Part shown: positions 1 through 64,000 of the stretch, in pieces
Layout of the letters: every line of letters begins with the position of its first letter
How positions within the stretch are numbered: the first letter of the stretch is position 1
Source of the DNA: a virus
DNA: 64,000 bases
IMG/VR virus record: IMGVR_UViG_3300046167_000417
Span: 1-64,000 of that record
Strand: one strand, 5' to 3'
Notes under the pieces: model-generated
Told to the model about the DNA's origin: nothing
Databases searched by the model: none
Seen by the model: only the letters and a program-made list of their open reading frames with translations
Made by a program: the position numbers and the translations under genes

Positions 1-3000
1 CGCCTATGTCTGCTTGTATTTGTTTAGGTGATCTAGAAGATTTTTGATCTAACTTAGAAGCTTTGTCTCTGGCTATAGTGTTAGCAATTATAGAACCTTT
101 TAGTTTAGCTATACCACCTAGAAAGGTACCTATATTTCTATCATATCTATTTAATTCTCCAGCAGGCGTAATACCCATAGCATCTTGAAGATCTTTAATA
201 GTTTGAGTAGAAATACTACCCGTAAACTCAGGCTTTAATTTTCTTATAAAAGGTTGACTGCTTAATCCAGATGATCGCTCACCTGTTTTATCAGCGTAAA
301 AATAATTTAATACTCTACCTTTTAAACCTATAGATCTACCCTGAATATCTTTAGACACAGGAATTTTTTCTCCTCTAGACCCAACTTCAGATTCTTTTGA
401 AGTTACATTTGTAGGAGGTAGTAATTTTATAAATTTTCTAACTTCTTGATCGTTTCTAAAATCATCTTGTATTCTACCCGCTTCAGAGTTTTCAGGTATA
501 CCATTTGTTATTTTTTTAGCATACGTTAGGTTTGCGTTTTTGTCAAGCTTACCCTCTGATATGTTATAAATAGAAGAAGCAATTTTAGTTCCAAACTTAC
601 TACTTATAGATTTAAAATCAGCATTGAAAGGCGCTAAGTCACTTTGAGATATGTTAACAAGGTTTTCAATTTTCTTAATATCTGGACTTACAATTTTAAA
701 CTTTCTAGGATCTATTTTAGATACTGTTTCTTTAGCTTCTCTAGCTTCTCTTTCTTCTAGTGTTTCGTTAGAATCTTGTGATGCTATATCAAATCCTACA
801 CCTATTCTAGTTTGTTTAAAATCTTTAGGTGCAAACTCTTGTTTGTAAAACTTATTTGCTCTACCTGCTTTAAATACGTTAAATACGTATGTAGTAAAAG
901 CTTGTTTATTACCGTCTTTGTCTACAGGTTTATAGTTTTTTATAACGCTTTCAAACTCTGTAGCTACAAACTGAGATGCTTCATTAGCTAATATATCACC
1001 TTTAGAAACGTTATAACCCATAGCATCTAAAGCTACTGATTGATATTGAGTAAAAAAGTCAAAATATTTATCACCCGTGTTAAATGAACTAGGATCATTT
1101 TTATATTCAACAGCTAACTTGTTTACTGTAGATTTATCTGAAAACTTAGTGTCTTTACCTTCAAATTCTTGTAAAGCTTTTTTTGTTTTTTTACTTACCT
1201 TACCAGCTCTAAACGCAGCATTGTTAGCGGCTAAATAACTTAAGGCTTTCTCAGGAGTATTAAGCTTGTTAGGATTAGTGTTGTTAAAAACCCTAGTCAT
1301 AAAACTATCTTCTTGTTCTATCTGTACCTCATCTTCATAAGCATACAAATACTCTTGCATATACTTAGTATACTCATCTCTATACTTCTCACTATTTTCA
1401 AACGTTAAATTTTCATTAGCGTATAAATTATCAAGCATGCTTCTAACACTTTTATCTACAGCTTGTATAGCTTTGTTATTTGTTTTAGCGGCAGCAGCAG
1501 CTAAGTTTTCAGCATATAGCTTTCTGTTTTCAGGCTTTATACGAGCGTCATCAACTATATGAGAAAATTCATGCAATATAACTGTTCCGGCTTTAATTTG
1601 CCCTTTATCTAAATCTTTCTTTGCTTGATCTTTGTCTTGGGTTATTATAGTATTACCCATCACAGCACCGTAAGTCTCGCCATTATTAAATTTAGAAACA
1701 GCGTCTTTATATTCTTTAGAATTAACATCTATTCCTTGGTCCTCAAGTGCTTTCTTTAACTCTTCCTCTGTAGTGTATTCAATTATGTTTACACTTTTTA
1801 CATCTGCAAATATATCACTAGCTTTAGCGCTTACACCTTCAGCCACGGAAATAGCTCTTGATCTGTCTAAAGCCATTTGATCTCCAAGCTCTTTATATCT
1901 AGATTCTTTTTGTTTATTATTTAAAGGCTTATCGTTTATAGTTTCGTTTTCAACAATCTCTACAATCTCAGGATTTGCTTTTGCTGCTTTTTTACTTTCT
2001 CTGCTAACGCTCTCTCTTACATGATTTATAACAGCTACTATTTGATCTTCGATAGATTTAGAGTTATAATTATCTTTGTTTACCTTTTTTAAATACTTGT
2101 TGTTGTTAGTCCATAGATCACCTAAACTTTCTTTGGCTTTTTTAGTACTAGTTGGTTTTTCTTTTATGTTGTTAACCTGCTTATCTAATACGTTTAATTG
2201 AGTTTCAAATACTTTAGCTTCTTCTTTGGTTAAAGACTCTTTATATGAATTTACAACCTCAGCTTTGTCAACGTCAGACATACCAGGCATAACACCTGCT
2301 TGCGATAAAAGCTGTGACTTTATTAACTCAGTACCTATTAATCTTTTTATATCATTAACATCACGACCAAGAATATCTACACCTAACCTGTCTAGTTCTA
2401 ATCCTTGCTCTTGAAGATTTGAAGCCATATCAGATATTAGCAGCTTTTTTTGTTTATCATCTAATTTAGAATCTTGTATTAAAGTGCTAAGCTCGTTGTT
2501 GTTTATTCTAAGCTTGTTTATTTTCTGCTCAAACTTTTTAGTAGCGTTATAATTTACCATACCAGAATAAGCAACACCTGGGCTTTGCGAAACACCTAGT
2601 GTTATTATAGTAGACATAGCAGTGTCGTCCCAAGCGCTAAGATCTAATTCTCTATCAAGTATACCATACTCTGTTATAAACTGTTGACCACCATATATTA
2701 ACTCTTCTTCAGCAAGCTCACCAGCACCTCTTGTCAATAATGGCTTACCTATTAGACTTGCTACTTTTTGATAATTACCTGCGTATAAATTTTCAGCTAT
2801 GCTTGTTAAAGACGTGGGAGATTTAAAATCTTTTAAAAGTTTTATAGTGTTAGGAGCTGTACCTAAAAACCTAGTTACAGTACCTTCAATTATACCATTA
2901 GCTAATGAAGCATTTACTATTTGAGCGTCGCTTATTTCACTCATGGCTTTTGTTTTGTTTATATCTCTCATAGTGCTAGTATAAGTATATAAATCTATAA

Positions 3001-5194
3001 TGCCACTCTCGTAAGCGTTTAAAGCTATTTTAGCTTGCTTGTCAGCTGTTCCAACTATTTGCTGTTGTGTTTTTAAATCACGATAAGTTTGAGTTCCTGA
3101 AGACAAACCAAATAAACCACCAATAGCGTTAGCTGTCATGGAAGAAGATAAACCCGCTGCTGAACCTACCCCACCAGTAGCTATAGCTAAAGTAATGTTA
3201 GCGGACTGCTGACCTAGTGTTCTAAAAAAGTAAGTACCAAAATTACCATCATCATAACTACCCATTTTTTCAAAATAGTCATTTTTAGAGTTTAATCTTT
3301 TTTGTGCTTCTATAGCCCAGTCAGCGTCAACTAAAGTAGGTGCTGCTAATAGTATTCCAGCAAAGGCATCATTAACATCTTTAGCCAACAAACCACCTAT
3401 ACCGTACTCTTTCATTGAATTTCTAAAAACATCAGCATCAGCAGGATTAGCCGCGTAAAATTCTGAAACCTCTCTCTGCATGTTCTCCACAGTAGCTGAG
3501 TAGTCTATTTGAAGATTAACAAAGTCGTTCTGTAGTTTGTACATTTCTGACTGAGCTTGCTTTAGTTTCTCACCCTCTTCAGAACTAAGGTTTCTATCGT
3601 TAGATACTGAAAATATAGCTTCACCACTTGGTGTATACTCTATGCTAATCTTAGTTCCTTCTGGTGAGTTTTTTGAAATTTCATTAGCTTTTTCACTTAG
3701 TATATCAATAAACTTTTTTTGTATATTAGGTAACTCTTTAACTTGAGCTTTTATTCTTTCATCAAACTTTTCTTTTTCAATTTTAGCAACACCCTGACCT
3801 AGTTTAATTAAGTTTTGATCACCAGAGTTAGCCATTATTCTTTCTGCTATAGTAGAAGATCTATCAAGCAACTCTTGATTTTTTAACTCTTTAATACCAG
3901 CGACGTACATGTTTTTAATAAAATCCTCACCACCAGCTTGCTCTATTTTATCCACAACACTTTCAGGTAAACCACGCCAGTTTCTCATTCTTATGATATC
4001 GTCGTCTATCTTTCCAGGTACTTTAATCATTTTATCCAGCTTAGCATTATAAACCATTTCGCCTATAGCGTTGCTTTCCATGTACTCTCTTATTTGATCT
4101 TGCTCTTCCTCGCTAAAACCTTCTGATAAAACTTGGTTTACGTTTGCTATTATATCTTCTGCATACGTATTTTTAAAATATTTTAAGTCTAGAGATTTAT
4201 TAGACTTAATTACTTTTTTTTCAGCTTCGATCTCTCTAGCTTTATTTTCTAAATAAGTGCTAGTTGCTTCGTAACTACTTTTCTTTATAGATTCATAACC
4301 TTCATCTCCTAGATCTTCTTTCATAAAAGACCTTAACTTATTTACATCTAATTTTTCTTGAACAACAACACCATCTTTTAGAACATTATAAGAATAAGGT
4401 TGATATGTTCCGTCTTTTCTAGAACCGCTAGGTTGATTTATAGATACACTATAACCTGTAGACTCTAAAGCTTTGTTTATAGCTCTATCGTCTTTTGTTT
4501 CATTTAACACATCAGCTAGTTGACCAACAGTGTTAATAATTAAATCTTCATCTGTTTGACTATTATAAGCTTTATCTAGTTTTTTTAAAACATCTACAGC
4601 CTCATCTCTACCGTCTAAGGTAAAAGGTTGTAAGTCTAGTTCTATTGGGTTGTCTGTTCCAGGTAAAACTATGTTTAATGCATTTCTAACACCTGTTTGT
4701 TCTATGAAAACACCTGGATATTCATTCATTAAAAATTCTTGAACCTCTTCCTCTGTCTTATCTATAATAGACATAGGTTTATTTATATCCATTTCAGAAC
4801 CAGTATATGCTTTTTTAAGCTTGCTTCTTATGTTAGAGTATCTCTCGTCAAGAAGCATTTTACCTGCTCTAGTACCGTTATATTTGTCACCAAATATACC
4901 TCCTGGTTCAACTTTTTCGTATTCCGATAAAATATCTTCCAACTGAGATTCCAAAGCGAATGTCTCGTCTATTTCCGTTACTACAGGTACATTCTCTCCT
5001 GCAGCAACTATCGGCTTTCCCTCTGTTGGCCTTAATACGGTTCCAGTTCCTACTGGTTCTTTTTCTTTTATCTTTAAATTAAAAGCACTTACGTACTCTT
5101 CTAAAGACATTTCCTCGTAATTAGCGTTGTCTTGCACTTCAGCAAGTGTTAATTCACCTAAAACTGGGTGTATGTAAATAGGATCTATTGCCAT
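1..5194 (-). CDS. Giant virion/ejection protein with zinc metalloprotease motif (N-terminal part, runs off the left edge)
   Basis: One frame stays open from the ATG at 5192-5194 to base 1, giving more than 1,730 residues. Around residue 1208 (bases 1559-1573) lies VILHEFSHIVDD, an HExxH zinc-binding helix, preceded by a TIITQDKD strand as in zincin-like peptidases. The rest is mostly charged helical sequence, with a Gly/Ala-rich stretch near 3.1-3.2 kb. Very long proteins of this style in phages are internal virion or polyvalent proteins that enter the cell with the DNA. A protease there could process virion or host proteins; this is inference. The gene follows the 549-aa gene by 18 bases, in the same late transcript. 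It may be continuous with the ORF at the right edge if the genome is circular. Confidence 0.75.
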   Translation of the reverse strand, partial: MAIDPIYIHPVLGELTLAEVQDNANYEEMSLEEYVSAFNLKIKEKEPVGTGTVLRPTEGKPIVAAGENVPVVTEIDETFALESQLEDILSEYEKVEPGGIFGDKYNGTRAGKMLLDERYSNIRSKLKKAYTGSEMDINKPMSIIDKTEEEVQEFLMNEYPGVFIEQTGVRNALNIVLPGTDNPIELDLQPFTLDGRDEAVDVLKKLDKAYNSQTDEDLIINTVGQLADVLNETKDDRAINKALESTGYSVSINQPSGSRKDGTYQPYSYNVLKDGVVVQEKLDVNKLRSFMKEDLGDEGYESIKKSSYEATSTYLENKAREIEAEKKVIKSNKSLDLKYFKNTYAEDIIANVNQVLSEGFSEEEQDQIREYMESNAIGEMVYNAKLDKMIKVPGKIDDDIIRMRNWRGLPESVVDKIEQAGGEDFIKNMYVAGIKELKNQELLDRSSTIAERIMANSGDQNLIKLGQGVAKIEKEKFDERIKAQVKELPNIQKKFIDILSEKANEISKNSPEGTKISIEYTPSGEAIFSVSNDRNLSSEEGEKLKQAQSEMYKLQNDFVNLQIDYSATVENMQREVSEFYAANPADADVFRNSMKEYGIGGLLAKDVNDAFAGILLAAPTLVDADWAIEAQKRLNSKNDYFEKMGSYDDGNFGTYFFRTLGQQSANITLAIATGGVGSAAGLSSSMTANAIGGLFGLSSGTQTYRDLKTQQQIVGTADKQAKIALNAYESGIIDLYTYTSTMRDINKTKAMSEISDAQIVNASLANGIIEGTVTRFLGTAPNTIKLLKDFKSPTSLTSIAENLYAGNYQKVASLIGKPLLTRGAGELAEEELIYGGQQFITEYGILDRELDLSAWDDTAMSTIITLGVSQSPGVAYSGMVNYNATKKFEQKINKLRINNNELSTLIQDSKLDDKQKKLLISDMASNLQEQGLELDRLGVDILGRDVNDIKRLIGTELIKSQLLSQAGVMPGMSDVDKAEVVNSYKESLTKEEAKVFETQLNVLDKQVNNIKEKPTSTKKAKESLGDLWTNNNKYLKKVNKDNYNSKSIEDQIVAVINHVRESVSRESKKAAKANPEIVEIVENETINDKPLNNKQKESRYKELGDQMALDRSRAISVAEGVSAKASDIFADVKSVNIIEYTTEEELKKALEDQGIDVNSKEYKDAVSKFNNGETYGAVMGNTIITQDKDQAKKDLDKGQIKAGTVILHEFSHIVDDARIKPENRKLYAENLAAAAAKTNNKAIQAVDKSVRSMLDNLYANENLTFENSEKYRDEYTKYMQEYLYAYEDEVQIEQEDSFMTRVFNNTNPNKLNTPEKALSYLAANNAAFRAGKVSKKTKKALQEFEGKDTKFSDKSTVNKLAVEYKNDPSSFNTGDKYFDFFTQYQSVALDAMGYNVSKGDILANEASQFVATEFESVIKNYKPVDKDGNKQAFTTYVFNVFKAGRANKFYKQEFAPKDFKQTRIGVGFDIASQDSNETLEEREAREAKETVSKIDPRKFKIVSPDIKKIENLVNISQSDLAPFNADFKSISSKFGTKIASSIYNISEGKLDKNANLTYAKKITNGIPENSEAGRIQDDFRNDQEVRKFIKLLPPTNVTSKESEVGSRGEKIPVSKDIQGRSIGLKGRVLNYFYADKTGERSSGLSSQPFIRKLKPEFTGSISTQTIKDLQDAMGITPAGELNRYDRNIGTFLGGIAKLKGSIIANTIARDKASKLDQKSSRSPKQIQADIG

Positions 5195-5212: not shown

Positions 5213-6862
5213 TTAACGATAAAGTTTTTTAGCTTGTTCAAAAGTCATTGCATCACCTATTGGATCACCGTCTTTGTTTTCTATTTGAAACTTTTGTGCC
5301 ACAGGATCATAAACAAGTTTTCTACCACCTGTTCCAGCCCCTAAGGTTCTTGCTACTGTAAAGTATTCTTTTGCTGCATCCTCACCTTCATCTAGAACTT
5401 TTTTGCTTTTTCGTAATTCTCTCTCGTTAGCATCTCCAACATTAGTTCTACTAGGATTATTGTTCTTTTGAGCTTTAGCAACGTCACTTTCTTCTATGTA
5501 GAAATACTGCTCTGTATTTGGTTTAACATTACTTACATCAACACCAGCTTCTTTAAGCTCGTCTATCTGCTCTTGTGTTATCATTCTTTTTTGAAGTTCT
5601 AATCCGTTAACTTTTTGATTAACAAATTTACCAGAAGAATCTCTTTCTTGACCTAAGTTAAAATGAGTTAAAAAATCATCGTTAATGTAGCCTAGTATTT
5701 CTTGCTGAACGTCTTCTGCTGAGAATTTTCCAGATTTAATTTGCTCAGCATAATCTATACCAGCTCTACCTAAGGACTCTAGATAATTATAAGCATCTTG
5801 CTGATCTGTAGGACTTCCTTGTAGCATTTTTGTTATTGTACCTGCCTTAGCGTTAAATAAATTTTTCATAGAACTTAAAGCTCCATCTATATTAACAAAC
5901 TCCATAGACTTAACTTGATCTAAAGTATCTCCCTTTGTTTTTGTTCCTGCTAATTTATGCTTGTACTGTTTGTTTAACTGTCCGTTTTTTACTACATTAA
6001 ACTCTTTAGCCTGTGTGTTGTAGTCTATCTTGGGTATTATATTTTGTCTGGCCATATCACCACTCCAACTACCGTCAGATAAGTTTCTACTCCAATCAAC
6101 ATGTATGTAACCATCAACTACAGGATATTTACTTTCATCACTATAAGATGCTGCTTCAGGAGTTCCAGCCTTTATTTTAAAAGAAAGCTTCATGACTGAC
6201 TCAAGATCGTTTTTTGAGTTTTGTATTCTTTCAAAAGATCTGTTTGTAACCTCTACGTTGCTAGGTAAAGGTTTATTATATATGCTAGAACCTACTAAGT
6301 AATTAGTGTATTGTCCAGCTCCTGTTCCAGCTAAGTAATAACCTTCTTCACCGCTAATTGCTTTTTCAAAATCATCTTTATCAGATAGCGGTATAGCAGC
6401 TTCTTTAGAAAAGTTGTTAAAAGTTCTTTGTTGGCGTGCTATAGCTCTTTGGTATTCTTTTCTTTTATCCGGATCTAAGTCTAAATTTGAATTAACTTCT
6501 GCAGCCATTTTTATGGTACCTATTCCATAGTCTTTTTTAAAACCTTTGTATTCATAAACGCCTCCATACATTTCGTATTCAACTTGTTCTCTAGCTTGTT
6601 CTATAAAACCTTTATCAGCGCCTTCGTTTTCTAGCTTTATAAAGTTAGCTTCTGAGGCTTCTAAGGCTTTTTGCTCTGCAGATATATATGATTTCTGATA
6701 TATTTGTTTTTTCTTTTCTACTATATCAGCTTGTTTATTTCTAGCTTCTACCACTTGGTTAAAGCCGGATACTAAAGCTGCTGAAACTTGACTAGATGCA
6801 TCGGCCCAAGCTTTTGCACCGTATAGATCTTGTATTATTGTTGGATTAGTATATGCGCTCAT
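5213..6862 (-). CDS. Probable internal virion protein, 549 aa
   Basis: A soluble, charged protein with a helical N-terminus (residues 1-120 rich in A, E, K and Q, likely coiled coil) and no transmembrane segment. No family is recognised with certainty. It sits between an Ala/Gln-rich protein resembling the small ejection proteins of podoviruses and the giant protein, which is where T7-like phages keep their ejectosome genes. I infer an internal core or DNA-ejection role. Confidence 0.6.
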   Translation of the reverse strand: MSAYTNPTIIQDLYGAKAWADASSQVSAALVSGFNQVVEARNKQADIVEKKKQIYQKSYISAEQKALEASEANFIKLENEGADKGFIEQAREQVEYEMYGGVYEYKGFKKDYGIGTIKMAAEVNSNLDLDPDKRKEYQRAIARQQRTFNNFSKEAAIPLSDKDDFEKAISGEEGYYLAGTGAGQYTNYLVGSSIYNKPLPSNVEVTNRSFERIQNSKNDLESVMKLSFKIKAGTPEAASYSDESKYPVVDGYIHVDWSRNLSDGSWSGDMARQNIIPKIDYNTQAKEFNVVKNGQLNKQYKHKLAGTKTKGDTLDQVKSMEFVNIDGALSSMKNLFNAKAGTITKMLQGSPTDQQDAYNYLESLGRAGIDYAEQIKSGKFSAEDVQQEILGYINDDFLTHFNLGQERDSSGKFVNQKVNGLELQKRMITQEQIDELKEAGVDVSNVKPNTEQYFYIEESDVAKAQKNNNPSRTNVGDANERELRKSKKVLDEGEDAAKEYFTVARTLGAGTGGRKLVYDPVAQKFQIENKDGDPIGDAMTFEQAKKLYR

Positions 6863-6878: not shown

Positions 6879-7619
6879 TTACGGGTTAAATAAAGTTCCT
6901 TCTTGAGCTCCACCAATAGCTGTCCCAACACCAATCGCACCTGTTATAGCACCACCCCATGCTTGAGCTTTTGCTTGGTTAGCGGAAGCTTGATTTGCCA
7001 TAGCTTGTTGTTGTTGTCCAGCTGCTCTAGCTAAATCTGCGTTACTTCTGTTTTCCTCTGTTTGCATTACAAATTGTTCTCCAGCTGCCATTTGAGTTTG
7101 CATTCTCTGTCCTTCTGATATTTGTATACCTTGTATTCTTTGTGCTTCACTCATTTGAAGCATTTCCATTTTTTGTTGACCTTGTGCTCTTAGTTTTTCA
7201 TTAGCAACTTCTTGTTGTTCTATACTAGCTGACACTCCTTTTTTACTAGCTAAAGCAGCCTGCGCTAAAGCAGTAGCACCACCTGCACTAGCACCTGTTG
7301 TTGCTAATGTATCTAGTGAATTAGCTAAAGCCATATCCGCTTGTTCCATTTGTATTTCAGAAGCTTGAGTAGCAACAGACATACTAGCAAAAGGATTAGA
7401 TACCATGTCGCTTAAATTAGAAGCTAAACTAGATAGATTACTATTACCTGCATAAGGGTTAGTTATAGGAACTCTTTCAGCCTTTATTCTATCTATCTCT
7501 TGTTGAGCTCTTGATGCTGCTCTACCGGCTCTTTTACCCGCTTTATCGGCTTGATTTGCTGACACGGCTCCACCTATAAGTGATGCTCCCGCGCCTACAA
7601 CCGCTGCTACTACTGCCAT
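6879..7619 (-). CDS. Internal virion protein, Ala/Gln-rich (T7 gp14-like in character)
   Basis: 246 aa. The N-terminus is a hydrophobic Ala/Gly/Val segment (residues 1-20), followed by a basic patch and a long Ala/Gln/Met helical region, and ends with a second Gly/Ala hydrophobic segment (about residues 221-240). This composition and size are typical of the small ejection protein of podoviruses, which inserts in the outer membrane during DNA entry. Its place directly ahead of two larger internal-type proteins supports this. Homology is inferred from composition and position, not from a motif. Confidence 0.55.
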   Translation of the reverse strand: MAVVAAVVGAGASLIGGAVSANQADKAGKRAGRAASRAQQEIDRIKAERVPITNPYAGNSNLSSLASNLSDMVSNPFASMSVATQASEIQMEQADMALANSLDTLATTGASAGGATALAQAALASKKGVSASIEQQEVANEKLRAQGQQKMEMLQMSEAQRIQGIQISEGQRMQTQMAAGEQFVMQTEENRSNADLARAAGQQQQAMANQASANQAKAQAWGGAITGAIGVGTAIGGAQEGTLFNP

Positions 7620-8038: not shown

Positions 8039-9334
8039 TTAATAAGATGACTCAGAGTAGTTTGATGATAACGCAAACAACTCGTTTGTTCCTGAGCTAG
8101 TTGTATTTGTAGCTCTTAGTTTTACTGTTGCAAAAAATCCTTTAACTCCAGATATTGATCTACCATATATAACCTCGCCACCAGCAGCAGCTGAAGTATT
8201 TATTAGGTTAGCAAAATACTTATCTTCTTTTCTTTTGAATTCATTTTTAAACAAACTACTTTCCATGCTAGCTAAAGTTGTTGGTAAAGCATAAACTGCA
8301 ATTGGATTTGCTGAATCTTCGTTAGTGACAAAGCTTTCCATAGACCAGTTAAAGTTACCTTCATAATTAACTGTTTTAAATGTCTTTATTAAAGAAGGAT
8401 TTGTGTTTAATATACTAGTGACAGTTGAATCATATTGAACTCCATAAAAATTAGCTCTAGGTAAAACAGCACCGGAGTTATTAAACTCAACATAGTGTTT
8501 GTATAAAGAACCGCTTTTAGTAGAAAAGAAGTTGTTTTGTATACTAAACATTTGTCTAGGTATATAGCTTAATGTACTTGTCCAACCTTTTACTTGTTCA
8601 TCAAAAGTTACAGTTATTGGTGATTGGCTTGTAGAGGTTTGTAAAGACAATACATAAGCTTTGTTATATATGTCATAACCACCTATGGCTTTTCCAGCTT
8701 CTAGTATACCAAATTGATCTCTAAAAAAGTCATACATACCGTAGTTAGATATTTCTGTTATACCATCTCTAGACAACCTAAGAACAGATCCTTGAGCTGC
8801 ATCAGTGAAGTATTTTCTATAACCATAAACAGCAAAAGACTCTGGATTCTTTGCAATTCCAAATTCACCAGCGTATGGTTGTATAGCTCCAATAACTACA
8901 TTAGATGTGGTTTGCACTGGTAAACCCTCTTGAGTATATATAGCATCTTTATCTATTAAAGCTCTATTTACTTTTCTTTCTTGAAATATAGTTAAATTAG
9001 TATCCTCAGCGTATAGTTTTTGTATACTACCTTTTGATGGGTCTACGGTTCTAGTTATGTCTTGACCAGATGGAAAAACATTTGTTTGGTTTACACCTGT
9101 TCTAGAATTTACAACGCCAGAATATATAATAGAATTAGCTAATAGCTGTTGAGCGTTTTCATCTGATGCTAAAAAAGCCCTAGGTGCTAGTCCAGTCTGC
9201 ACATTGTTATAGCCACCTCTAATTCTAGATTCTTCAATATACCAATCATACTCAGTTCTAGAAGGCCCAGTCTGTCTGTTTATTTTCTTTAAAACGTATG
9301 TGTTATAATACTTTACTGGTATAGCTGTAGCCAT
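8039..9334 (-). CDS. Tail/muzzle-type structural protein, 431 aa
   Basis: Beta-rich protein. Its central part (FQERKVNRALIDKD, NPESFAVYGYRKYF, VLRLSRDGITEISNYGM) resembles the tail-knob or muzzle proteins of crAss-like podoviruses as I remember them. Such proteins form the distal tail around the DNA exit channel. It follows the large tail ORF within the same late operon. No signal peptide or catalytic motif is visible. The exact tail position is an inference from context. Confidence 0.55.
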   Translation of the reverse strand: MATAIPVKYYNTYVLKKINRQTGPSRTEYDWYIEESRIRGGYNNVQTGLAPRAFLASDENAQQLLANSIIYSGVVNSRTGVNQTNVFPSGQDITRTVDPSKGSIQKLYAEDTNLTIFQERKVNRALIDKDAIYTQEGLPVQTTSNVVIGAIQPYAGEFGIAKNPESFAVYGYRKYFTDAAQGSVLRLSRDGITEISNYGMYDFFRDQFGILEAGKAIGGYDIYNKAYVLSLQTSTSQSPITVTFDEQVKGWTSTLSYIPRQMFSIQNNFFSTKSGSLYKHYVEFNNSGAVLPRANFYGVQYDSTVTSILNTNPSLIKTFKTVNYEGNFNWSMESFVTNEDSANPIAVYALPTTLASMESSLFKNEFKRKEDKYFANLINTSAAAGGEVIYGRSISGVKGFFATVKLRATNTTSSGTNELFALSSNYSESSY

Positions 9335-17917: not shown

Positions 17918-19396
17918 TTAGATTCCTTTGAACAATACGAAGTTGTTCGCAGCTTGTGTAACTAAACATCTTTCTGATAAGAAGTTTACTTCCATTGCAT
18001 CCAAAGATGAAGTAAAAGCACCTCCTACAGAACCAGTCAACCAAGACTTCATACGTCTGTCATCAGCTTGAGAAGCTCTATAACGCACGTGTAAGAATGG
18101 TCTTCTAATATTTGTTCCTAAGATTTGATCATATACCGTAGAAGTTCCAGCTGGTACTAACACACCTTCAATAGATGCAGGTCCAGAAATAGCTCCACGA
18201 GTAGAAGCATCGTTTAAGTATTTCCAGTCAGTTTTGTAGAAGTCATAAGAACCTCTTCTGAAACCAGAGAAACCTAAATTTAATGCCATTTCTTCAGAAT
18301 TTTCAAATAATCCAAAAGCAGTACCTCCAGCGAATCCACCTGAGATAGAAGCAAGCATATCATCAAAATCAAGAGCAGTAGCTCTGTTTAAGAATAACAT
18401 GTTTTCTTCAATAGCTCCTTGAGTATCTAAGTTTTTAAGTATTGCATCAAAAGCATCTAATCCAGCAGCAGCTGTAAATCCAGTTTGTACATTACCTCTC
18501 TGACTGATAGCAGAGAATAAACCTTGAGAACCACCACTTTGATTTGTTAATGCAGCAGGTCCACCAGCACTTAATTCTCCTTCAACCATTGCCATTTCTA
18601 AGTAATCTTCAAAACGTAAACGAGTTTCAGATTCAGCTTTTAAATACCATAAGTATCCTCCAGTTCCATCTTCAGTAGCAACTTCTACCCATCCAATCTG
18701 AGCAGTGTCAGAACCATTAATAGTATAAGTACTTCTAATGATTATTGGAGAGTTTGAAAATTGAGTAAAGCTAGGATCTACAGTAACCATAGGGTTAGCG
18801 TTAGCAGCGTAAGTATTTGCTCCTACAGCTGCGTTTGCAGTTGAAGTTCCTTTTTGAAAATCAGAACCGTAAACAAATATCTTTTTTCCAGCACCGTCAG
18901 CGATACCAGCAGCAGCTAAATTAGCGAAGCCATAAGGCTCTACAACTAACTGTCCTGGATTACCTCCTCCACCTGCTAAGCGAGTGTCAGAAGTTCTAAC
19001 GAAACATTTTGCTTCACCACCGAATTGATCCATTACAACTATTGTTGCACCTGGAGAAATTACGTTTACAATTGGCACAGCAGCACCCGCAGCTGTAACA
19101 GGAATTGTAATTGTTCCCGCTCCAGAAGCTGAAGTACAGTCGTTGTAAGCAATGTGTAATCTATTTTGTTCAGACCAAATTACTTGATCAGATGTCATTG
19201 GCATTTCAGCGCCAACCATTCTTAAAAATCCTGATAACGTTCTGTTACCATATCTTTCTACCTCTGCTTCGTAAAGCTCTGGTAGGTATTGTTGTGAGAA
19301 ATCGTTTTGTCCACCTGTAAAATTTAGGTAGTTGTTTGCCAACGTTTGTTGTTGTTGACTTGGTACGATTGAACCAAATTGCGGAGCAATTGCCAT
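17918..19396 (-). CDS. Major capsid protein (HK97-fold expected)
   Basis: 492 aa. Its place after portal and scaffold, its size and its Ala/Gly-rich composition indicate the major capsid subunit. Visible landmarks are an N-arm (FSQQYLPELYEAEVERYGNR), a repeated-strand region, and a C-terminal P-domain-like end (RASQADDRRMKSWLTGSVGG, NFLSERCLVTQAANNFVLFKG). The ATG is preceded by an A/T tract and no Shine-Dalgarno, the usual pattern for highly expressed Bacteroidota genes. The sequence resembles MCPs of crAss-like marine phages. Confidence 0.85.
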   Translation of the reverse strand: MAIAPQFGSIVPSQQQQTLANNYLNFTGGQNDFSQQYLPELYEAEVERYGNRTLSGFLRMVGAEMPMTSDQVIWSEQNRLHIAYNDCTSASGAGTITIPVTAAGAAVPIVNVISPGATIVVMDQFGGEAKCFVRTSDTRLAGGGGNPGQLVVEPYGFANLAAAGIADGAGKKIFVYGSDFQKGTSTANAAVGANTYAANANPMVTVDPSFTQFSNSPIIIRSTYTINGSDTAQIGWVEVATEDGTGGYLWYLKAESETRLRFEDYLEMAMVEGELSAGGPAALTNQSGGSQGLFSAISQRGNVQTGFTAAAGLDAFDAILKNLDTQGAIEENMLFLNRATALDFDDMLASISGGFAGGTAFGLFENSEEMALNLGFSGFRRGSYDFYKTDWKYLNDASTRGAISGPASIEGVLVPAGTSTVYDQILGTNIRRPFLHVRYRASQADDRRMKSWLTGSVGGAFTSSLDAMEVNFLSERCLVTQAANNFVLFKGI

Positions 19397-19411
19397 AATT
19401 TTAATTTTTAA

Positions 19412-20638
19412 TTAGTTAAACTTTTTAGTTTTAATTTTTAGTTTTGACGAGTCTAACCCACTAATTGCTTTAACTTTTAATCCATTTATAAATACATTTC
19501 CGTCGGCAACTCGCCTAGGTTCGTCTTTAGATGGATTTTTAGATCCACTGATTATGCTTTTTACACCATCAGCTTTTCCTTGTTCGTAAAAATGATTAGC
19601 AAGTTTATCTGCGTTCATAGCAGCATACATCGCTTTATGGTAACCTGCAGCATCTGTCATTAATCCTTCTTCGTTTGTATATTTACCCACGAAATTTTGT
19701 ACGTCAGCTTGTAGTTCACCTACTTTAACCGGATCTTTAATTCCATATCTAAATCTTTTTTCCCCAAGATTAAATTCAAAACCTTTGAATTCATTGTTGA
19801 ATAGTTTTTTAGTTCTGTCTCTAAAATCACCGTGCATTTGTGTAGCAACTTCTTGTTGCTGCTTATATTGGTCGTAAAAGCTAATAGCTTCTTGTTGCTC
19901 TTGAGTAACGCCCGGTCTCAACTTGATCTCGTCGTAATATTTGCTCTTAGAACTTTCAAGAAATTGTTTTGCATTTGCAACCTCTTCCTTAAACGCAAGT
20001 TTTTTCTTACGTATTTCTCTTGGCTCATCTACATCTTCATCAAAATCAAAATTATCTTCCATTAAAAAGCTAATTTCTTCTTGATCTAAATGTGGTTTTG
20101 CCTTTGTATAATATTCTCTTAAAACATCTTTAGAACTGTAAGAGTTGTAGTCTTTATTTAAAGCTACATAATCTTGTACAGTTCCGCCGGTTTCTTCCAT
20201 AAAAGATACTAGCTTTTCGATATTTTCTGGTAAAGGTTTACCTAAGATTTTTTCATCTCTTTGTGCTTCTTTAACTTCTTGAGCTATTTCCTTTACCTCT
20301 TCTTTTGTTATTTCTTGGATGGGGGTAATTTCTTCAACAACCTTTTCGGGCTTTGATACTTGTTCGTCCATTCCAGAGCTATCTCCGGTTTGTTCGCCCA
20401 CATCCATCTTCTTTGTTTCTCCGATTTGAATGGCATCTTCTTCTTTGTTTAGAGCCTCAGTAGGTACTTCTATTTTTATAACCTCTGGAGCTATCTCACC
20501 TGTTGCTTCTGGTTTTGTTAAATCAACCTTAGTTATTTCTTCCTTAGATTGTAAACTTAGATTTTTAGGTTTTCTTTTTTTAACTTTGAACTCGCCTTCT
20601 TGTTTAACGGGTTCTTGTGGTTTTGTTTCTTCTGACAT
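19412..20638 (-). CDS. Capsid scaffolding protein
   Basis: 408 aa, highly acidic, with a disordered Glu/Lys-rich N-terminal 150 residues and a helical remainder (LREYYTKAKPHLDQEEISF is typical of podoviral scaffolds). The basic C-terminus (GLKVKAISGLDSSKLKIKTK) would contact the coat protein. It sits between portal and MCP genes with 15-28 base spacers, the canonical scaffold position. No protease domain is seen. Confidence 0.75.
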   Translation of the reverse strand: MSEETKPQEPVKQEGEFKVKKRKPKNLSLQSKEEITKVDLTKPEATGEIAPEVIKIEVPTEALNKEEDAIQIGETKKMDVGEQTGDSSGMDEQVSKPEKVVEEITPIQEITKEEVKEIAQEVKEAQRDEKILGKPLPENIEKLVSFMEETGGTVQDYVALNKDYNSYSSKDVLREYYTKAKPHLDQEEISFLMEDNFDFDEDVDEPREIRKKKLAFKEEVANAKQFLESSKSKYYDEIKLRPGVTQEQQEAISFYDQYKQQQEVATQMHGDFRDRTKKLFNNEFKGFEFNLGEKRFRYGIKDPVKVGELQADVQNFVGKYTNEEGLMTDAAGYHKAMYAAMNADKLANHFYEQGKADGVKSIISGSKNPSKDEPRRVADGNVFINGLKVKAISGLDSSKLKIKTKKFN

Positions 20639-20666
20639 GATAAAATATTATATAATTATTAAATAG

Positions 20667-23081
20667 TTAACTAGGCGGCATTATATTTTGTAAACCAAAC
20701 GTGCCTAGTTGTGATGAATCTCCACTTTCAAAATCTACTGGAGCTGAATCATTTTGTCGTTGATTTATTAATTGACTTTGTTGAGTTCCTTGTAATTTAA
20801 CTCTTTTATCTTTTCTATCCTCTATTTTGTTTTCTTTTTCAGACTCTACGCCCATTTTTATTTGAGCTAACTGTTTTTGGTACTCAAACTCTTGAGCCAT
20901 TAGCTGTTGCTTAACCGTCATCTCTGTTTGCATCCTTTGAATTTCAAACTGTGATTTAGCTTGCTCTACTTGCACCTTTGATTCTGTCATAGCTTGGTTT
21001 TTTTGAACCTCAGCCATAGCGGCAGCCTCTGTAGTTTTAGCATTTGCCTGTGCTTGCGCTTGAATCATTTGTTGTTGTTGTGCCTGTTCTCTTGCTAGTT
21101 TCTTTTTTCTTTTCTGCTTCAACAGCTGATTAGCTAATTTAAGGTTTTTTATTTGCCTTATATCTATAGCGTCTTCTAAATCAATACCTCCACTTTGTAA
21201 AGCTATTTGTATGTTTTGCTCTAACTGAGCTTGAGCTTCGTCGTCAGGTTCTAGTTCTAAGAATATACCAAAATCATGTAGATTAAGTGTGGCTATTTCA
21301 GCTAACGTACTAGCATTAAATAGTGATATACTCTCTATTAAAGCATTTTTAGTTAAAGGAAAAGAAAGTACATCAACCATTTTTAAAGATATGTTTTCAC
21401 ATATTCTAAGAGCAAGAAACAAGCTAGCTTGATTAACGTGCTTAGTTGCTATATTAGATTGATTAGCAGCCATCTTTGCTATACCTACTAAAGCGTCTTT
21501 ATCTTGCATACTACCATCTCTAGCTTCGTTAAGACCTGTTACATCTCTTATCATTTGTAGATAATAATTGTAAGTCATTATTAAGCTTTGTAGCTTAGCA
21601 CTTCCAGCTGATGACTGTAGTTCTTGAATAGGTACTTTACCTCTATTAAGCTCTCCATCTTGAGTTAAGGATCTACCAACAATGGAACCAGTTTGAAAAT
21701 ACATATTTAATGCTTCTGCTGGGTTGTAATTTGTACCATTACCTAGGTCAACTTCAGCAAGCCCATCCATATCTAAGAATACACCATCTGGTACCATTCT
21801 AGATAAAACTTGCTGCATTTTCAAATGTGTTATTTGAATCATGTCAGCAAAACCTGTTATCTTACTTACTATAGACTCTATTCTACCCTTGTACATTCTA
21901 GGAGCACATATAGCATAGTTCATTTCAACTTTAGTGCTATCAGAATTAGGTCTAGTCATGTTTTCAGCAAGTTCCCATTTTAGCATTATATCTGTACCAA
22001 GAACTTTTACACCTGAATATAAAACCTCTATAGTTCTAGAAACTCTATTATATGTATCAGCAGGAGGTGGATTAAATTCGTCTGTTTTTTGAATAACTTT
22101 TTCTAAACCATTTTCAGTGTTTTTTAACTTAAACACTTGGTTCATGTATGTTTTATATTCAAAATACATAACTTGAACAGTGTTACTATCGTAATTACCC
22201 CACCCTGTTATATACTGCCTATTACCTGGCATTTCCTGTATTCTTTGAAGTTCTCTTTCTGGTATATTAGGAAATTGTTTTTTTAGTTCAGGTATTGTAA
22301 TAGATTTAACTTCACCGACATAGTAAACATCTTCAAAGTTAGGGTCTTCTGTATATGAATATATTAAGTTAGCTGGATCAACGTAGTCAACAACTATACC
22401 ATTTGTTTTGTTGAAACTTGTCTTAGCACAAGCAATACCACAGACAACTAAATCCTCGTTTATTCTTCTTTTTATCAAAGGCCACCTATTGCTAGCCAAT
22501 GTAGTTGTTATAGCTTCTTCTTCTGCTATTTCTACTGATTGCTTGTAGGAAAGCTGCATGTGAAGTTCTAATTCCTCATTACTTTGAGGTAGTTGTTCGT
22601 CTGGTATTTTTGACTGCTTAGCGTCAATACCTAAAGCTTGTTTTGCTTGCTGCATTAGCTCTTTAGCGTACATATCTTCCGCTATAGCTTGTGCATACTT
22701 TGTTCGTTTTTTTACAGACTCTGGATCTTGGGAAAAAGCTTTAATTTCAAACTCCTTATTTGATATACCATTTACTACTATATTTACAAATTTTGATATA
22801 ACAGGAACTGGCTTCCAGTCTAAATTTAAATAAGACAAATCACCATTTATAGATAATTCGTCTTTGTATTTTTGAACAGATTGTTCTCCTCTAGCGTACA
22901 GTCTTAGATTATGAAAATTATTCCAACTCGTAAGGTATCTGTTACCGTTTGTTCTACCTTGATTAAACCACTCAGTTTCAATAGCAGAAGCTACTTGAGA
23001 GCCGTACTCTCTTGAAGCTTTTTCAGCGTCTGGTACTACCTGACTAGGAAAAGCGCTATTTGAATTAGTATATATTTTCAT
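20667..23081 (-). CDS. Portal protein
   Basis: 804 aa. It is located between TerL and scaffold and has the portal pattern: a mixed N-terminal part (WKPVPVISKFVNIVVNGISN), a long middle containing VDYVDPANLIYSYTEDPNFE, and a long Gln/Lys-rich C-terminal coiled coil (residues 655-770) like the barrel of podoviral portals. It would form the dodecameric channel at the packaging vertex. The gene starts one base after the TerL stop reading frame, indicating translational coupling. Confidence 0.85.
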   Translation of the reverse strand: MKIYTNSNSAFPSQVVPDAEKASREYGSQVASAIETEWFNQGRTNGNRYLTSWNNFHNLRLYARGEQSVQKYKDELSINGDLSYLNLDWKPVPVISKFVNIVVNGISNKEFEIKAFSQDPESVKKRTKYAQAIAEDMYAKELMQQAKQALGIDAKQSKIPDEQLPQSNEELELHMQLSYKQSVEIAEEEAITTTLASNRWPLIKRRINEDLVVCGIACAKTSFNKTNGIVVDYVDPANLIYSYTEDPNFEDVYYVGEVKSITIPELKKQFPNIPERELQRIQEMPGNRQYITGWGNYDSNTVQVMYFEYKTYMNQVFKLKNTENGLEKVIQKTDEFNPPPADTYNRVSRTIEVLYSGVKVLGTDIMLKWELAENMTRPNSDSTKVEMNYAICAPRMYKGRIESIVSKITGFADMIQITHLKMQQVLSRMVPDGVFLDMDGLAEVDLGNGTNYNPAEALNMYFQTGSIVGRSLTQDGELNRGKVPIQELQSSAGSAKLQSLIMTYNYYLQMIRDVTGLNEARDGSMQDKDALVGIAKMAANQSNIATKHVNQASLFLALRICENISLKMVDVLSFPLTKNALIESISLFNASTLAEIATLNLHDFGIFLELEPDDEAQAQLEQNIQIALQSGGIDLEDAIDIRQIKNLKLANQLLKQKRKKKLAREQAQQQQMIQAQAQANAKTTEAAAMAEVQKNQAMTESKVQVEQAKSQFEIQRMQTEMTVKQQLMAQEFEYQKQLAQIKMGVESEKENKIEDRKDKRVKLQGTQQSQLINQRQNDSAPVDFESGDSSQLGTFGLQNIMPPS

Positions 23082-25295
23082 TTATTCAATTATTTTTGAC
23101 AATGTACCTTTATTATTATATCTTTTAAAACCTAAATTGTAAGAAGGTCTTTTGAATGTTGGGTTTGGTTTATACTTATTTTTATTACAGGCCATAATAG
23201 CTAAGCCTGAACTTATAGATGCATCATGTGATGTTCTATTGTTTATATTAAATTTAGCCCAATCTTCAAGAGTTCTTTGGAAATAAACATCGCCATAGTT
23301 ACCATCATCTTTTAAACCAACATGATGTTCTATGTAAGATTCTATAGCTGCAGCATGAGCTTGCTTTATGTCTTCACTAGAGTTTGGTATTCCACCTATC
23401 TCTCTTTCTGTAGTTGATAGTTTACTGTATTTTTTATCTGGTCTGTTTATAGAATAACCTCTATAGCCTCTACGTTTAAAATAGTACAATAGTCTAGGTT
23501 TATTGTTTTCAGCAAGTATTGGCATACCGTAAAAAACACAAGCCATTAATACATCTTCAAAAAATATTTCAGCTGTTTGAGGTCTAGATATATATTCTAG
23601 GAAAAAATGATTTGATGGAACGTTATCCATGTTAAACTTAGTTAAACCATGTAAAGCCCCATTAGATCCTCTTCTATCTACAGTTCCAGATATATCGTAA
23701 CTATCACAGCCAAAAGCCCCCATGTAATCATTACCAGGCCATTTAAGTCCATTTTTCTTTATAACACTATTTTGCATTTCAACAGATGGTATCCAGGATA
23801 CAAAAAATCTACCCTGCTTGCTAGGCATAAAAACAACTTTAGTATCTTTAACACCATTAACCCATTGGAAATTGCCTTGTGTTATTATTCCGCTGTTTTT
23901 TAAATCAGCATTCCAATCTACTTGTTGGTATATTTTAGTAAGATTAAATAAAGATGATTTAGCCTCATCTCTAAATGCGTGTTCTTCTGTTCTTGGAAAC
24001 TGACGGTAAAATTCGTTTAAACCATCTTGATCTTCTTTTAAACCATTTACTTCATTTTGCCAGTATTCAATTACACCTATTTTTATATCAGATCCATGCG
24101 GATCTTTTACAGCTTTTTTAGGCGTGTCGAAGACAGGTATGCCATAAGAATCAATGTATCCTTCGTAATTCCATTCCATAGGTATGAACAAAGAATATAG
24201 TCCCGAGCTAGTTTGCCCATTGGCGTTTCTTTTTGTAACATCTGAAGCGTTATATAGGTTTTTAAAATTATCTCCTCCTTTATCTAAAGCGTTTGATGTA
24301 CTTCCCATCATGCACTTACCTATGACCTTACTACCTAGTCTTAATGTTGTTTTCGTAACCCTCCAGTTATTGAGGATGTTGTTTGGTCTTTCCCATTTAC
24401 CTGATTCATCATGAACGAGGAGCTTGAGTTTCTCTCCATCATAGGAGTTATCCCCTGTGTTCTTCCAGTCGATAGTGGTGTCAAGACCGGTAATTTCTTG
24501 TACTTTTGTATTGGCGTCAAGCTTTCTACGGGTGAATTTAGAAGCGGGAACTCTGTAAGCAAGCTCGGTTTTTGGCCTGTCCATACCATCTTGGATCGGT
24601 TTAAAAAAGAAAGGGTAGTTAACGGAAATTGGTACAACTTTATCTGTGAACATCTTTTTAGCATCGGGACCAGATTTGGACAATATGCCGAACCGTGAAT
24701 CCGTGGATATTGTAGCAAGGTTGACCGATTCAGCTGAGGACATAAATGAGAATCCTGATCTACGGTTTTTAAGATAGCACATTCCATATGATCTTGGGTC
24801 TGCTTTGCAAGCCTCCCAAAAGATGTAGAATAATCTATTTGATTCCCTAAAGTCTGGTTTCCCAACATCAATCTTGGACCACTGCAAGTACATGTAATGA
24901 GTACCAGTGATATAAGTAGGAATGTCTTTGTTAACAAACCAAAAACCTTCTTCACGTCTAGTAAATTCTTTGTCAATATAGTCATACCATTTTTCTTTAA
25001 AATCTAATGGATATTCTTCCCAGTCGAATACAGATTTAATTTTTTTTAATTGCTTAGGGTATTCAGAATAATTCCACTTATTGTTTTCAAACTTTACGAC
25101 TTCATTTTCTTTTGGCAGAGCTATTTTAAGATTCTGTATTTCATACACCTCTCCTATTTGACCTGTCTTACTTATTACTACTATGTCATATTCCTCATTG
25201 TAGCCATATTCCCATTTCTTATGTTTGTTCTTGTGATTTAAAGTTTTAGAATCAACATAGTTTTTTAATACTTTATATAGAGTTTGCTCGTACAT
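23082..25295 (-). CDS. Terminase large subunit
   Basis: 737 aa. The ATPase part has a degenerate Walker A around residues 176-185 (KNRRSGFSFM), as in crAss-like terminases, and a clear Walker B at 290-298 (LKLLVHDES). The C-terminal nuclease shows GCDSYDISGTVDRRGSNGA from about residue 529, including the first metal-binding Asp. It cuts and pumps DNA into the prohead through the portal, whose gene follows directly. The first about 120 residues form an extra N-terminal region. Confidence 0.9.
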   Translation of the reverse strand: MYEQTLYKVLKNYVDSKTLNHKNKHKKWEYGYNEEYDIVVISKTGQIGEVYEIQNLKIALPKENEVVKFENNKWNYSEYPKQLKKIKSVFDWEEYPLDFKEKWYDYIDKEFTRREEGFWFVNKDIPTYITGTHYMYLQWSKIDVGKPDFRESNRLFYIFWEACKADPRSYGMCYLKNRRSGFSFMSSAESVNLATISTDSRFGILSKSGPDAKKMFTDKVVPISVNYPFFFKPIQDGMDRPKTELAYRVPASKFTRRKLDANTKVQEITGLDTTIDWKNTGDNSYDGEKLKLLVHDESGKWERPNNILNNWRVTKTTLRLGSKVIGKCMMGSTSNALDKGGDNFKNLYNASDVTKRNANGQTSSGLYSLFIPMEWNYEGYIDSYGIPVFDTPKKAVKDPHGSDIKIGVIEYWQNEVNGLKEDQDGLNEFYRQFPRTEEHAFRDEAKSSLFNLTKIYQQVDWNADLKNSGIITQGNFQWVNGVKDTKVVFMPSKQGRFFVSWIPSVEMQNSVIKKNGLKWPGNDYMGAFGCDSYDISGTVDRRGSNGALHGLTKFNMDNVPSNHFFLEYISRPQTAEIFFEDVLMACVFYGMPILAENNKPRLLYYFKRRGYRGYSINRPDKKYSKLSTTEREIGGIPNSSEDIKQAHAAAIESYIEHHVGLKDDGNYGDVYFQRTLEDWAKFNINNRTSHDASISSGLAIMACNKNKYKPNPTFKRPSYNLGFKRYNNKGTLSKIIE

Positions 25296-26986: not shown

Positions 26987-27388
26987 CTATTTATTATTAC
27001 TTATAGATTTGAATTTTTCCACGCCTCGTGATCCAAAGTAAGCTATATAAACAGTTGTAAGTAACTGTTTTAATAATCCAATCCACTCTTGCTCTACAGT
27101 AAAAGATATTTCATGATGACTATCAACCCATATAAAAGCTATAGCCATAATAGATAAAAATATTAAAGCCATAGGTCGTGTGTTTTTAGAAAGCCATGAA
27201 TCTGATTTCATATCGCTTTCCCAACGCCTTGTTATTTGACTCTCTGCCTCAGCATTAGCTTTATCCATGATTTCTTGGATTTGCTTTTTAATTAGCAGCT
27301 TTTCTTCTTTTGTGGTTGTAAGCTTATCAATGACGTCACCAACTTCTTTGATGACGCCACCTGTAAGCCATTGAATTATTTTTTTCAA
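26987..27388 (-). CDS. Holin of the 3TM type (candidate)
   Basis: 133 aa. A charged helical N-terminal half is followed by WESDMKSDSWLSKNTRPMAL, a segment characteristic of the 3TM holin family, then a hydrophobic helix (MALIFLSIMAIAFIWV) and a second weaker one near 107-122 (LKQLLTTVYIAYFGS). Such proteins permeabilise the inner membrane before the muralytic enzyme acts. The amidase gene lies in the other lysis cluster at 62.2-62.6 kb. Confidence 0.65.
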   Translation of the reverse strand: MKKIIQWLTGGVIKEVGDVIDKLTTTKEEKLLIKKQIQEIMDKANAEAESQITRRWESDMKSDSWLSKNTRPMALIFLSIMAIAFIWVDSHHEISFTVEQEWIGLLKQLLTTVYIAYFGSRGVEKFKSISNNK

Positions 27389-28717: not shown

Positions 28718-28718
28718 G

Positions 28719-62168: not shown

Positions 62169-62594
62169 TTATATGTTACAATATTCTTTATAAGCATCAA
62201 AGCACGGGCAACTTTTCGCAGCAAACTCATTGTGGCCATGTATAGTAGCAAGTGGATGCATTTTCTTTAATGTTTTAAGCAATAATAATAAGCTTTCTTT
62301 TTGTTCTGATGTTCTAGTATCCTTAGCAATCCATTTGCCATTAGATCCACGTTCTGATTCAACACCTCCAATATAACAAATTCCTATTGATCCTTTGTTA
62401 TGATTTTTAACGTGAGCACCTTGCTCATATATGTTGCGACCATATTCTATAGTCCCATCTAGTAAAACTACGTAGTGATATCCTATCCCTTTCCAACCTC
62501 TTTTTAAATGCCACTGATTTATTTCAGCCGCATCCAAGTTTCTACCTTCTTGCGTAGCAGAGCAATGTACTATTATTTTGTTTATTGTTCTCAT
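62169..62594 (-). CDS. N-acetylmuramoyl-L-alanine amidase (T7 lysozyme-like endolysin)
   Basis: 141 aa Amidase_2 fold. Zinc ligands are His10 (IIVHCSAT), His121 and Cys129 (GHNEFAAKSCPC); Lys127 corresponds to the catalytic Lys of T7 lysozyme. The core IGYHYVVLLDGTIEYGR is typical. It cuts the amide bond between muramic acid and the stem peptide. Its start overlaps the stop of the giant protein by 4 bases. Confidence 0.9.
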   Translation of the reverse strand: MRTINKIIVHCSATQEGRNLDAAEINQWHLKRGWKGIGYHYVVLLDGTIEYGRNIYEQGAHVKNHNKGSIGICYIGGVESERGSNGKWIAKDTRTSEQKESLLLLLKTLKKMHPLATIHGHNEFAAKSCPCFDAYKEYCNI

Positions 62595-64000
62595 TTTAGA
62601 TCGTTGTATTTTTCTTCTAATTTTTGTAACTTAAACGCAGGTGTTTTTATACCAGATTCTTTTTCTTTTCTATAAAGTTCCTCTCTCACTTCAACAGGTA
62701 GCATGTATAAAATTTTTCTTCTATAAGCTTTGTATTCTTTTGACTTCTGCTTGTTTATTTTTCTAGTTTCTTTAGCTTTTTCTTTACCAGCTTCTTTTCT
62801 AGCAGCTTTAGCTTTTGTCTTTATTAAATCATGCTCTTCAATTTTAACACCTGTATCCCATGATCTCCAACCTAAAGCAAGAGCTATTCTTTGCCACTGT
62901 GTGTTTCTAGTATCTAAAGCTTCTGTTATAGAATTAACTTCATCTACAGCTCTATCTAAAGGTAAATTAAGTGTTGCAGCTGATAATGAACCTATCATGT
63001 TATATGTAGGGCTAAGTTGAAACTTACCATCTATTGTAACATCAAAACCTCTTTCATTTATTACGTCTTTTTCATATTGCAAAGTTTGTAATGCCGAGTT
63101 TATTTTTCTAGCTTTAGAACCTATAGGTGGTGATATTTGAAGAGCTGCTAATATTATATCTGCATTTTCCCTAGAAAACTGAGGTTTTTCTTGGTACTCA
63201 ATAAACTCTCTTATAGTATTTTTAACAGTAACAGCTACAGCACCTGCTAAACCAGATCCACGAACAATTGAATCGATCATACCATTTGAAATTCTAGCTA
63301 TTTTATTTTCCTCACCTCTAATTTTCTTTTCGTCGTATTTTTCTTTTTCTTTATCTGTTGCAAAATCTTCGTCTTCATCATCGAATCCTGGTACTAAAGC
63401 AAACAATGCGTTTTGTAATGCGTTAAATATAAAGTTTTGTATAGCTCCGTAGTATAATATTTTAGATATATTTTGTTTTTTACTGCCTCTTCCGTTTATA
63501 AGATCTTGACCAGCTTTTTTAATCAACCTAGTATACTGCATAGGTGTATTTTGAAAAGCTAAAACTAATCTACCTAAAACACTAGACTGTTGACCTGATA
63601 TAAGCATTGGATCTGCAGACTGTTGTGTTTCGTCTGATATAGCACTAAAGTCTTCAAAAGCTTTTGCCTCTGCTTCACTTGCTTCAAAACCTTGCTTTTT
63701 ATAAGTATTAATTCTATTTCTATAAAAAGTAGCGCCACCCTGTAGATATAGCTATACTATCTGCTATTTGTGTTGGTGTAAAACCTATTTTAAGTAAATA
63801 AGATATAACACCTGTCATTCCTCCTTTTCTAGACGCTTGAGCGATTTCAGCTTCTTGTATGTCACCCTCTAACCCAGATCTTCTTTGTTTTAGTTTGTCT
63901 GAGTTAAACAATCTTATAACATCTTTCCAATACTGAGGTTGATTTGCTAAAGCTAAAGCTGCTTGTGCGGGGTTGTTGTCTGACCAGTTTATAAAGTTAG
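62591..64000 (-). CDS. C-terminal part of a giant virion/polyvalent protein (runs off the right edge; apparent frameshift near 63739)
   Basis: Frame 1 runs from the edge to a TAG at 63720-63722, ending ADSIAISTGWRYFL. The +1 frame carries on as GGATFYRNRINTYKKQGF and runs to 62591. Reducing the GGG at about 63738-63740 to GG joins them smoothly (ISTGGATFYRNR). The segment VLGRLVLAFQNTPMQYTRLI and a hydrophobic stretch (FIFNALQNALFALVPGF) are typical of large internal virion proteins in marine phages. If the genome is circular this may be the end of the ORF at 1-5194. Confidence 0.7.

Follow-up and report, generated by a model that had tools for sequence, protein, structure and literature searches.

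A predicted zincin-like metallopeptidase domain within a giant polyvalent-type protein at the end of a phage virion operon

A question is raised by the first bases of the 64,000-nt stretch of viral DNA analysed here (the window, which comprises positions 1-64000 of a 66,464-nt virus record): does a short zinc-protease motif, encoded on the minus strand inside a very long reading frame, mark a working peptidase and, if so, which protein would that peptidase cut? The original prediction for this locus was of a zinc protease within a giant, probably injected, phage protein, together with the suggestion that such a protease might disarm host defence or process other internal proteins, which is speculation. 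The reading favoured here, to which a probability of roughly 0.5 is assigned, is that the motif forms the active site in a zincin-like zinc metallopeptidase domain within a polyvalent protein of ~3,020 residues that travels as virion cargo and cuts itself. The parts of this reading differ in strength, as is described below.

The giant gene and the virion operon that it ends

The frame in question starts at nt 5194 and is still open at base 1 (nt 5194..2, minus strand), which gives 1,731 residues. It resumes in frame at the opposite end of the record, for a joined length of 2,507 aa, and a contig that is 99.75-100% identical to the record (termed L003) spans the junction and encodes an unbroken giant of 3,021 aa. 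Hence the record corresponds to a circularly permuted genome that was cut within the giant gene, and its first base is an artificial start. Intact giants of 3,017-3,027 aa occur in L003 and in five more near-identical or related contigs, so that the >1,730 residues originally credited to the protein describe the frame within the window correctly and understate the protein itself. Compared with L003 (99.75% identical), the record carries two single-base indels that split the gene near its 3' end. These are probably assembly or sequencing errors; a programmed frameshift was considered and rejected, inasmuch as single-base differences from so similar an intact relative resemble errors instead. 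The pieces of the giant gene are:

1..5194, minus strand: first 1,731 residues of the giant (relatives: ~3,021 aa), whose gene crosses the circular junction and goes on from record position 66464
62591..63607, minus strand: C-terminal fragment of the giant, a 338-aa ORF severed by single-base indels
63720..64000, minus strand: another C-terminal fragment of the giant, reaching record position 64133
Record 62591-64195, minus strand: the indel-split 3' end as a whole, from comparison with intact L003

The genome around this gene has PHROGs matches to portal, TerL, capsid and GroEL families. Its TerL is 64% identical to that of MW202828 (Manatee Spring), 45% to that of Flavobacterium Elemovirus, 38% to that of Cellulophaga phi18:3 and 30% to that of Tenacibaculum Gundel_1. 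Judged from these sequence relationships, the phage is a marine podovirus whose tail tip is crAss-like, and its relatives point to Bacteroidota as hosts. In the virion operon the giant gene comes last, as do its counterparts in MW202828 (3,859 aa), Elemovirus (3,694 aa) and phi18:3 (gp123; 1,935 aa), and nearly all members of this podovirus group encode a giant of this sort there. Record annotations describe Elemovirus gp18 as a 'structural protein' and phi18:3 gp123 as a 'virion structural protein, MS/MS proteomics', and HHalign relates the N-terminal half of the giant to a set from phi18:3, Calle and elemo phages (probability 93%, E 2.7e-7). The relevant features are:

3140..3520, minus strand: aa 559-685 of the giant, within the N-terminal half that is distantly homologous to phi18:3 gp123 (BLASTP E 0.005-0.007; HHalign)
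5213..6862, minus strand: 549-aa protein beside the giant, matched by position only to phi18:3 gp121, an MS/MS virion protein
6879..7619, minus strand: 246-aa protein, matched by position only to phi18:3 gp120, an MS/MS virion protein
8039..9334, minus strand: tail protein of the muzzle type (crAss_MUZ_C at 49.9 bits, cut-off 27; phrog_14478)
17918..25295, minus strand: block of capsid, portal and terminase genes from which the phage was identified (phrog_13704; portal, phrog_6547; TerL, phrog_6681)

Operon position and distant homology to a protein annotated by MS/MS thus lend indirect support to the proposal that the giant is injected: from such comparisons, it is quite probably a virion protein, and its delivery into the cell appears reasonably likely.

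As a separate observation, a 754-aa ORF (window 9370-11634, minus strand) separates the apparent halves of a ~1,500-aa protein (phrog_14478) of related phages, these halves being window 11711-14290, which has a Fib_succ_major domain, and the muzzle part at 8039-9334.

The putative active site and its fold

The zincin signature pairs an HExxH motif with a Glu that lies distally, on a subsequent helix. Both elements of the original motif are present on the minus strand: HEFSH at nt 1573-1559, within VILHEFSHIVDD (nt 1582-1547; aa 1205-1216 of the giant ORF), and the preceding strand GNTIITQDKD at nt 1657-1628. HEFSH is the sole HExxH in the protein, where composition predicts only ~0.0008 occurrences because just 4 of its 1,731 residues are His. 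The interval first assigned to the motif (1555-1720) does hold HEFSH; the domain is larger (~nt 1199-1873), however, and the probable third ligand, E1274, lies outside that interval. The predicted elements are:

1199..1873, minus strand: zincin-like metallopeptidase domain, aa 1108-1332 (domain alignment, AF2 model, structural matches)
1628..1669, minus strand: beta-hairpin G(1176)AVM-GN-TIIT before the active-site helix, with Gly1176 invariant (alignment; model strands 69-72 and 75-78)
1559..1573, minus strand: HEFSH, aa 1208-1212, with two His predicted to bind zinc and a Glu predicted to act as general base (HExxH invariant in 21 sequences)
1550..1552, minus strand: Asp1215, three residues past HExxH, invariant in the alignment and fitting the phage-type pattern of PMC5512222
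1373..1375, minus strand: Glu1274 in the helix KYRDEYTKYMQ, invariant in the alignment, candidate third zinc ligand (model helix 162-178)
1355..1357, minus strand: Gln1280, invariant in the alignment

The alignment on which these assignments rest has 21 members, the relatives being 21-94% identical to the window's domain, and only eight of its columns are invariant: G1176, V1205, H1208, E1209, H1212, D1215, E1274 and Q1280. The His and Glu residues on whose conservation the original prediction depended--that is, both motif His residues, the Glu between them and, in addition, a distal Glu--are therefore unchanged in every aligned sequence, and probably H1208 and H1212 are zinc ligands, E1209 the base and E1274 the third ligand. 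No conserved His is evident at the end of strand 2 in this alignment. The domain is under strong purifying selection (dN/dS 0.119, 0.084 and 0.03 against relatives L004, L005 and L006, respectively).

An initial AF2 run on six similar sequences gave a poor model (pLDDT 55), which was set aside; a usable model needed diverse relatives, and these were reached through the muzzle gene. With all 21 sequences a model of moderate quality was obtained (pLDDT 72.6, pTM 0.68), whose elements follow the order of the zincin core, namely alpha-beta-alpha-alpha-beta-beta-alpha-[HExxH helix]-...-[Glu helix]. In this model a three-stranded sheet (strands 29-32, 69-72 and 75-78) is accompanied by an N-terminal helix and two C-terminal helices, HExxH lies on a helix (99-111, the start of which, 95-97, is of low confidence), and E1274 is placed by both sequence and model position on a following helix, the geometry being predicted. 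Foldseek alone returned no match to this model with E < 0.001. With VIA-align the best matches were PPEP-1 (Z 4.0) and PPEP-3 (Z 3.9), at rmsd 4.4-4.7 over 127-140 residues with 14-16% identity, and lethal factor ranked seventh (Z 3.5), in a list that does not exclude families absent from it. A Z of about 4 is weak and would be insufficient by itself; that the leading matches are zincins agrees, as far as the model can be trusted, with the motif evidence.

Profile searches place the domain at the margin of the described families, so that the metallopeptidase relation expected by the original prediction emerges through relatives and not from the window's own domain. Against Pfam, PHROGs and NCBIfam, the window's protein matches no metallopeptidase profile, its only matches being to non-peptidase profiles near E 0.03, which are taken as chance. 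By score, Peptidase_M91 (PF14891) comes closest among the Pfam families: one relative (G002, contig L027) passes its cut-off of 25 with 25.1 bits (E 3.8e-7) and another (G006) approaches it with 21.8 bits (E 3.6e-6), whereas the window's own domain has no match to it. A dedicated search of 18 records for ATLF / M34 (PF07737) found no match at E <= 1, and a single-domain scan gave two weak matches (best E 0.033). Membership in the Pfam family MPTase-PolyVal (PF18818) was rejected after no match at E <= 1 was found in the window's record and nine relatives. Nor did LPD38 (PF18857) match in the related phages, where the controls likewise gave no match, and no LPD or PolyVal model appeared in Pfam scans of the window giant and several relatives. 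A tblastn search with the giant and the domains of two relatives found nothing among 50,697 phage records, and a PDB sequence search with zincin domain profiles found no zincin. HHalign, in contrast, joins the window's clade to an 'IxIN...HEFLH' clade from other giants with a probability of 94% (E 1e-7), aligning HExxH on HExxH. By sequence comparison, then, this appears to be a zincin clade without its own Pfam model.

The window also encodes a second HExxH protein, of 146 aa (28352-28792, minus strand; VELEKTLAHEQVHVDQYKDELKN...EKDAYAAERK), near a holin-like gene at 26987-27388 (GTA_holin_3TM, E 9e-4); it has no match in Pfam or the phage records.

Zincins and the shared C-terminal part across related giants

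Related phages were gathered through the muzzle gene (80 loci), and nearly all of the giants encoded downstream of these loci carry HExxH. Among giants longer than 1,400 aa, dereplicated at 80% identity (n = 33), exactly one HExxH occurs in 29, where composition predicts 0.12 for the whole set; a chance origin of the motif, for which the expectation in the window giant alone is also small, was accordingly rejected. One further giant (L080) carries the HExxxH variant HEFIGH. More relatives were recovered in a later scan with the domain alignment.

Both the position of the zincin and its sequence clade differ between giants. Two of these (L060 and L075) are 63% identical over 1,228 aa starting right after the zincin, and no comparable identity was found upstream of it; their zincins are unlike, with HETGH in one and HEFLH in the other. 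That identity begins only past the zincin indicates that the domain sits at a recombination boundary. From such sequence comparisons it appears that the zincin is exchanged along with the N-terminal half, yet that some zincin usually stays. Three complete giants (L083, L087 and L095) lack HExxH, as does L098 as far as its sequence reaches, and this sub-lineage constitutes a natural control for the role of the zincin. Together with phi18:3 gp123, which likewise lacks the motif, it implies that the giant can serve in the virion without a zincin.

No region of the giant is shared more widely than the C-terminal part, which is represented in as many as 19 of the 37 proteins compared. It includes a HAD-like domain (aa ~2090-2279 of the L003 giant, L003 16268-16837; record 64822-65391, beyond the window), in which 13 giants show the motifs DxDDT (DFDDT), TAR, K and DD without variation; the HAD motif is also kept by three giants without HExxH (L083, L087 and L098). 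The region matches phrog_415 (polynucleotide kinase; E 1.2e-4), and a PDB sequence search with the HAD profile found nothing, so that the HAD call rests on the motifs and the weak PHROG match. With a zincin and a HAD-like domain, the giant has at least two unrelated enzymatic or effector domains in one large phage polypeptide, as is characteristic of polyvalent proteins. In one relative (L070 19140-19709), a ~150-aa insert lies inside the HAD domain (VYHGAPKGK...GVKFFATDKREADEYAR...); by eye it resembles ADP-ribosyltransferase domains of polyvalent proteins, and it has no match in Pfam.

What the zincin may cut, and its likeness to known systems

The evidence points to an active zincin, for which zinc binding and proteolysis are very probable predictions from sequence. 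It is very unlikely that HEFSH is instead a fortuitous HExxH in a helical protein that has no peptidase. The missing metallopeptidase profile match for the window sequence and the weakness of the structural matches would agree with such an accident; the excess of HExxH among the dereplicated giants, the invariance of both His residues, the Glu, the Asp and the distal Glu, and the leading position of zincins in the structural list all speak against it. A retained zincin fold whose proteolysis is unused, serving as a folding or docking module for loading the giant into the head, is improbable as well, although it has a parallel: encapsidation of the N4 virion RNA polymerase depends on its MPTase region, yet the polymerase remains unprocessed (PMC5512222), and some giants do without the motif. 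A purely structural module, however, would have no need of E1209, and here the catalytic Glu and all ligand candidates stay constant in a domain that for the most part diverges to ~21% identity.

If the domain does cleave, its target may be the giant itself, and self-processing is tentatively favoured as its main role, at slightly less than even odds, because the zincin separates an exchangeable N-terminal part from a conserved C-terminal one and because phage P1 DdrB has been discussed as a precedent (PMC5512222). The giant would be packaged as virion cargo and would leave the capsid before or together with the DNA; the zincin would cleave its own polypeptide, either in packaging or after entry; and the cut would part an N-terminal virion/ejection half from a C-terminal half that carries the HAD-phosphatase-like domain. 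The N4 virion RNA polymerase, which is the classic analogue and is packaged unprocessed (PMC5512222), counts against this, and no conserved cleavage site was noticed in the giant. An unlikely alternative target, listed as possible in PMC5512222, is a host defence, envelope or regulatory protein, with the zincin acting as an effector delivered with the DNA and leaving the giant uncut. The nearest Pfam family, Peptidase_M91, is indeed described as 'Effector protein', and zincins of differing clades on C-terminal parts as similar as those of L060 and L075 are what changing targets would be expected to produce; domain replacement fits the self-processing of an altered N-terminal half equally well, however, the domain sits in the middle of the protein, and no target or link to a defence system was found. 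A doubtful extension of self-processing is that the ejected giant has a near-obligatory 'zincin slot', in which zincin clades would be swapped with the N-terminal half and rarely lost since a cut after entry must free the HAD-phosphatase-bearing C-terminal part in the host.

What zincin domains in giant phage proteins cut is largely unproven. In these environmental and partly cultivated flavobacterial podoviruses nearly every giant has exactly one zincin, drawn from several sequence clades, and a natural control lineage exists; self-processing can therefore be tested in cultivated relatives, such as Flavobacterium Elemovirus phages. A predicted active site can now be named, moreover, in proteins annotated merely as 'structural' or 'hypothetical'.

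Several known systems resemble the window giant in part. Closest in position are phi18:3 gp123, Calle_1 gp001, Elemovirus gp18 and the MW202828 giant, which share the place at the operon end and a distantly homologous N-terminal half. The Elemovirus and MW202828 giants also have HExxH, in motifs that do not align confidently to the window's clade; phi18:3 gp123, unlike the window giant, has none. The MW202828 giant itself (L009 741-12320, minus strand) has two HEFGH motifs, at aa 1615 and 2500, and its annotation as a 'reticulocyte binding/rhoptry protein' is surely a misannotation. The phage crAss001 also has a muzzle-type tail, and its large cargo proteins are carried in the virion until ejection, with RNA-polymerase association in three of its five cargo proteins (PMC10172136). 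Peptidase_M91 is likewise an HExxH zinc peptidase, whose cut-off one relative barely exceeds and others approach; it is annotated as an effector family, whereas the domain here lies inside a phage virion-operon protein. PPEP-1 and PPEP-3 (Pro-Pro endopeptidases) and the lethal factor catalytic domain are zincins and the best structural matches, but they are secreted proteins and are remote in sequence.

The likeness is strongest to the MPTase domains of polyvalent proteins (PMC5512222), which likewise sit inside giant phage proteins next to domains with other enzymatic functions and have HExxH, a Glu in a downstream helix and an Asp three residues after HExxH, the last reported for a widespread phage-type clade. 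The match proposed originally thus stands for architecture and active-site pattern and fails for the Pfam MPTase-PolyVal family; the window's domain also differs in that its strand 2 does not evidently end with a conserved His. Because zincin sequence features, topology and architecture are all present, while MPTase-PolyVal and ATLF do not match and Peptidase_M91 is borderline, it is classed as a zincin-like domain in a polyvalent-type phage protein. Zincin domains were already known from "polyvalent" phage proteins and were proposed in 2017 to process the giant phage proteins that carry them (Iyer et al. 2017, PMC5512222); the giant is a solid new example of this known theme.
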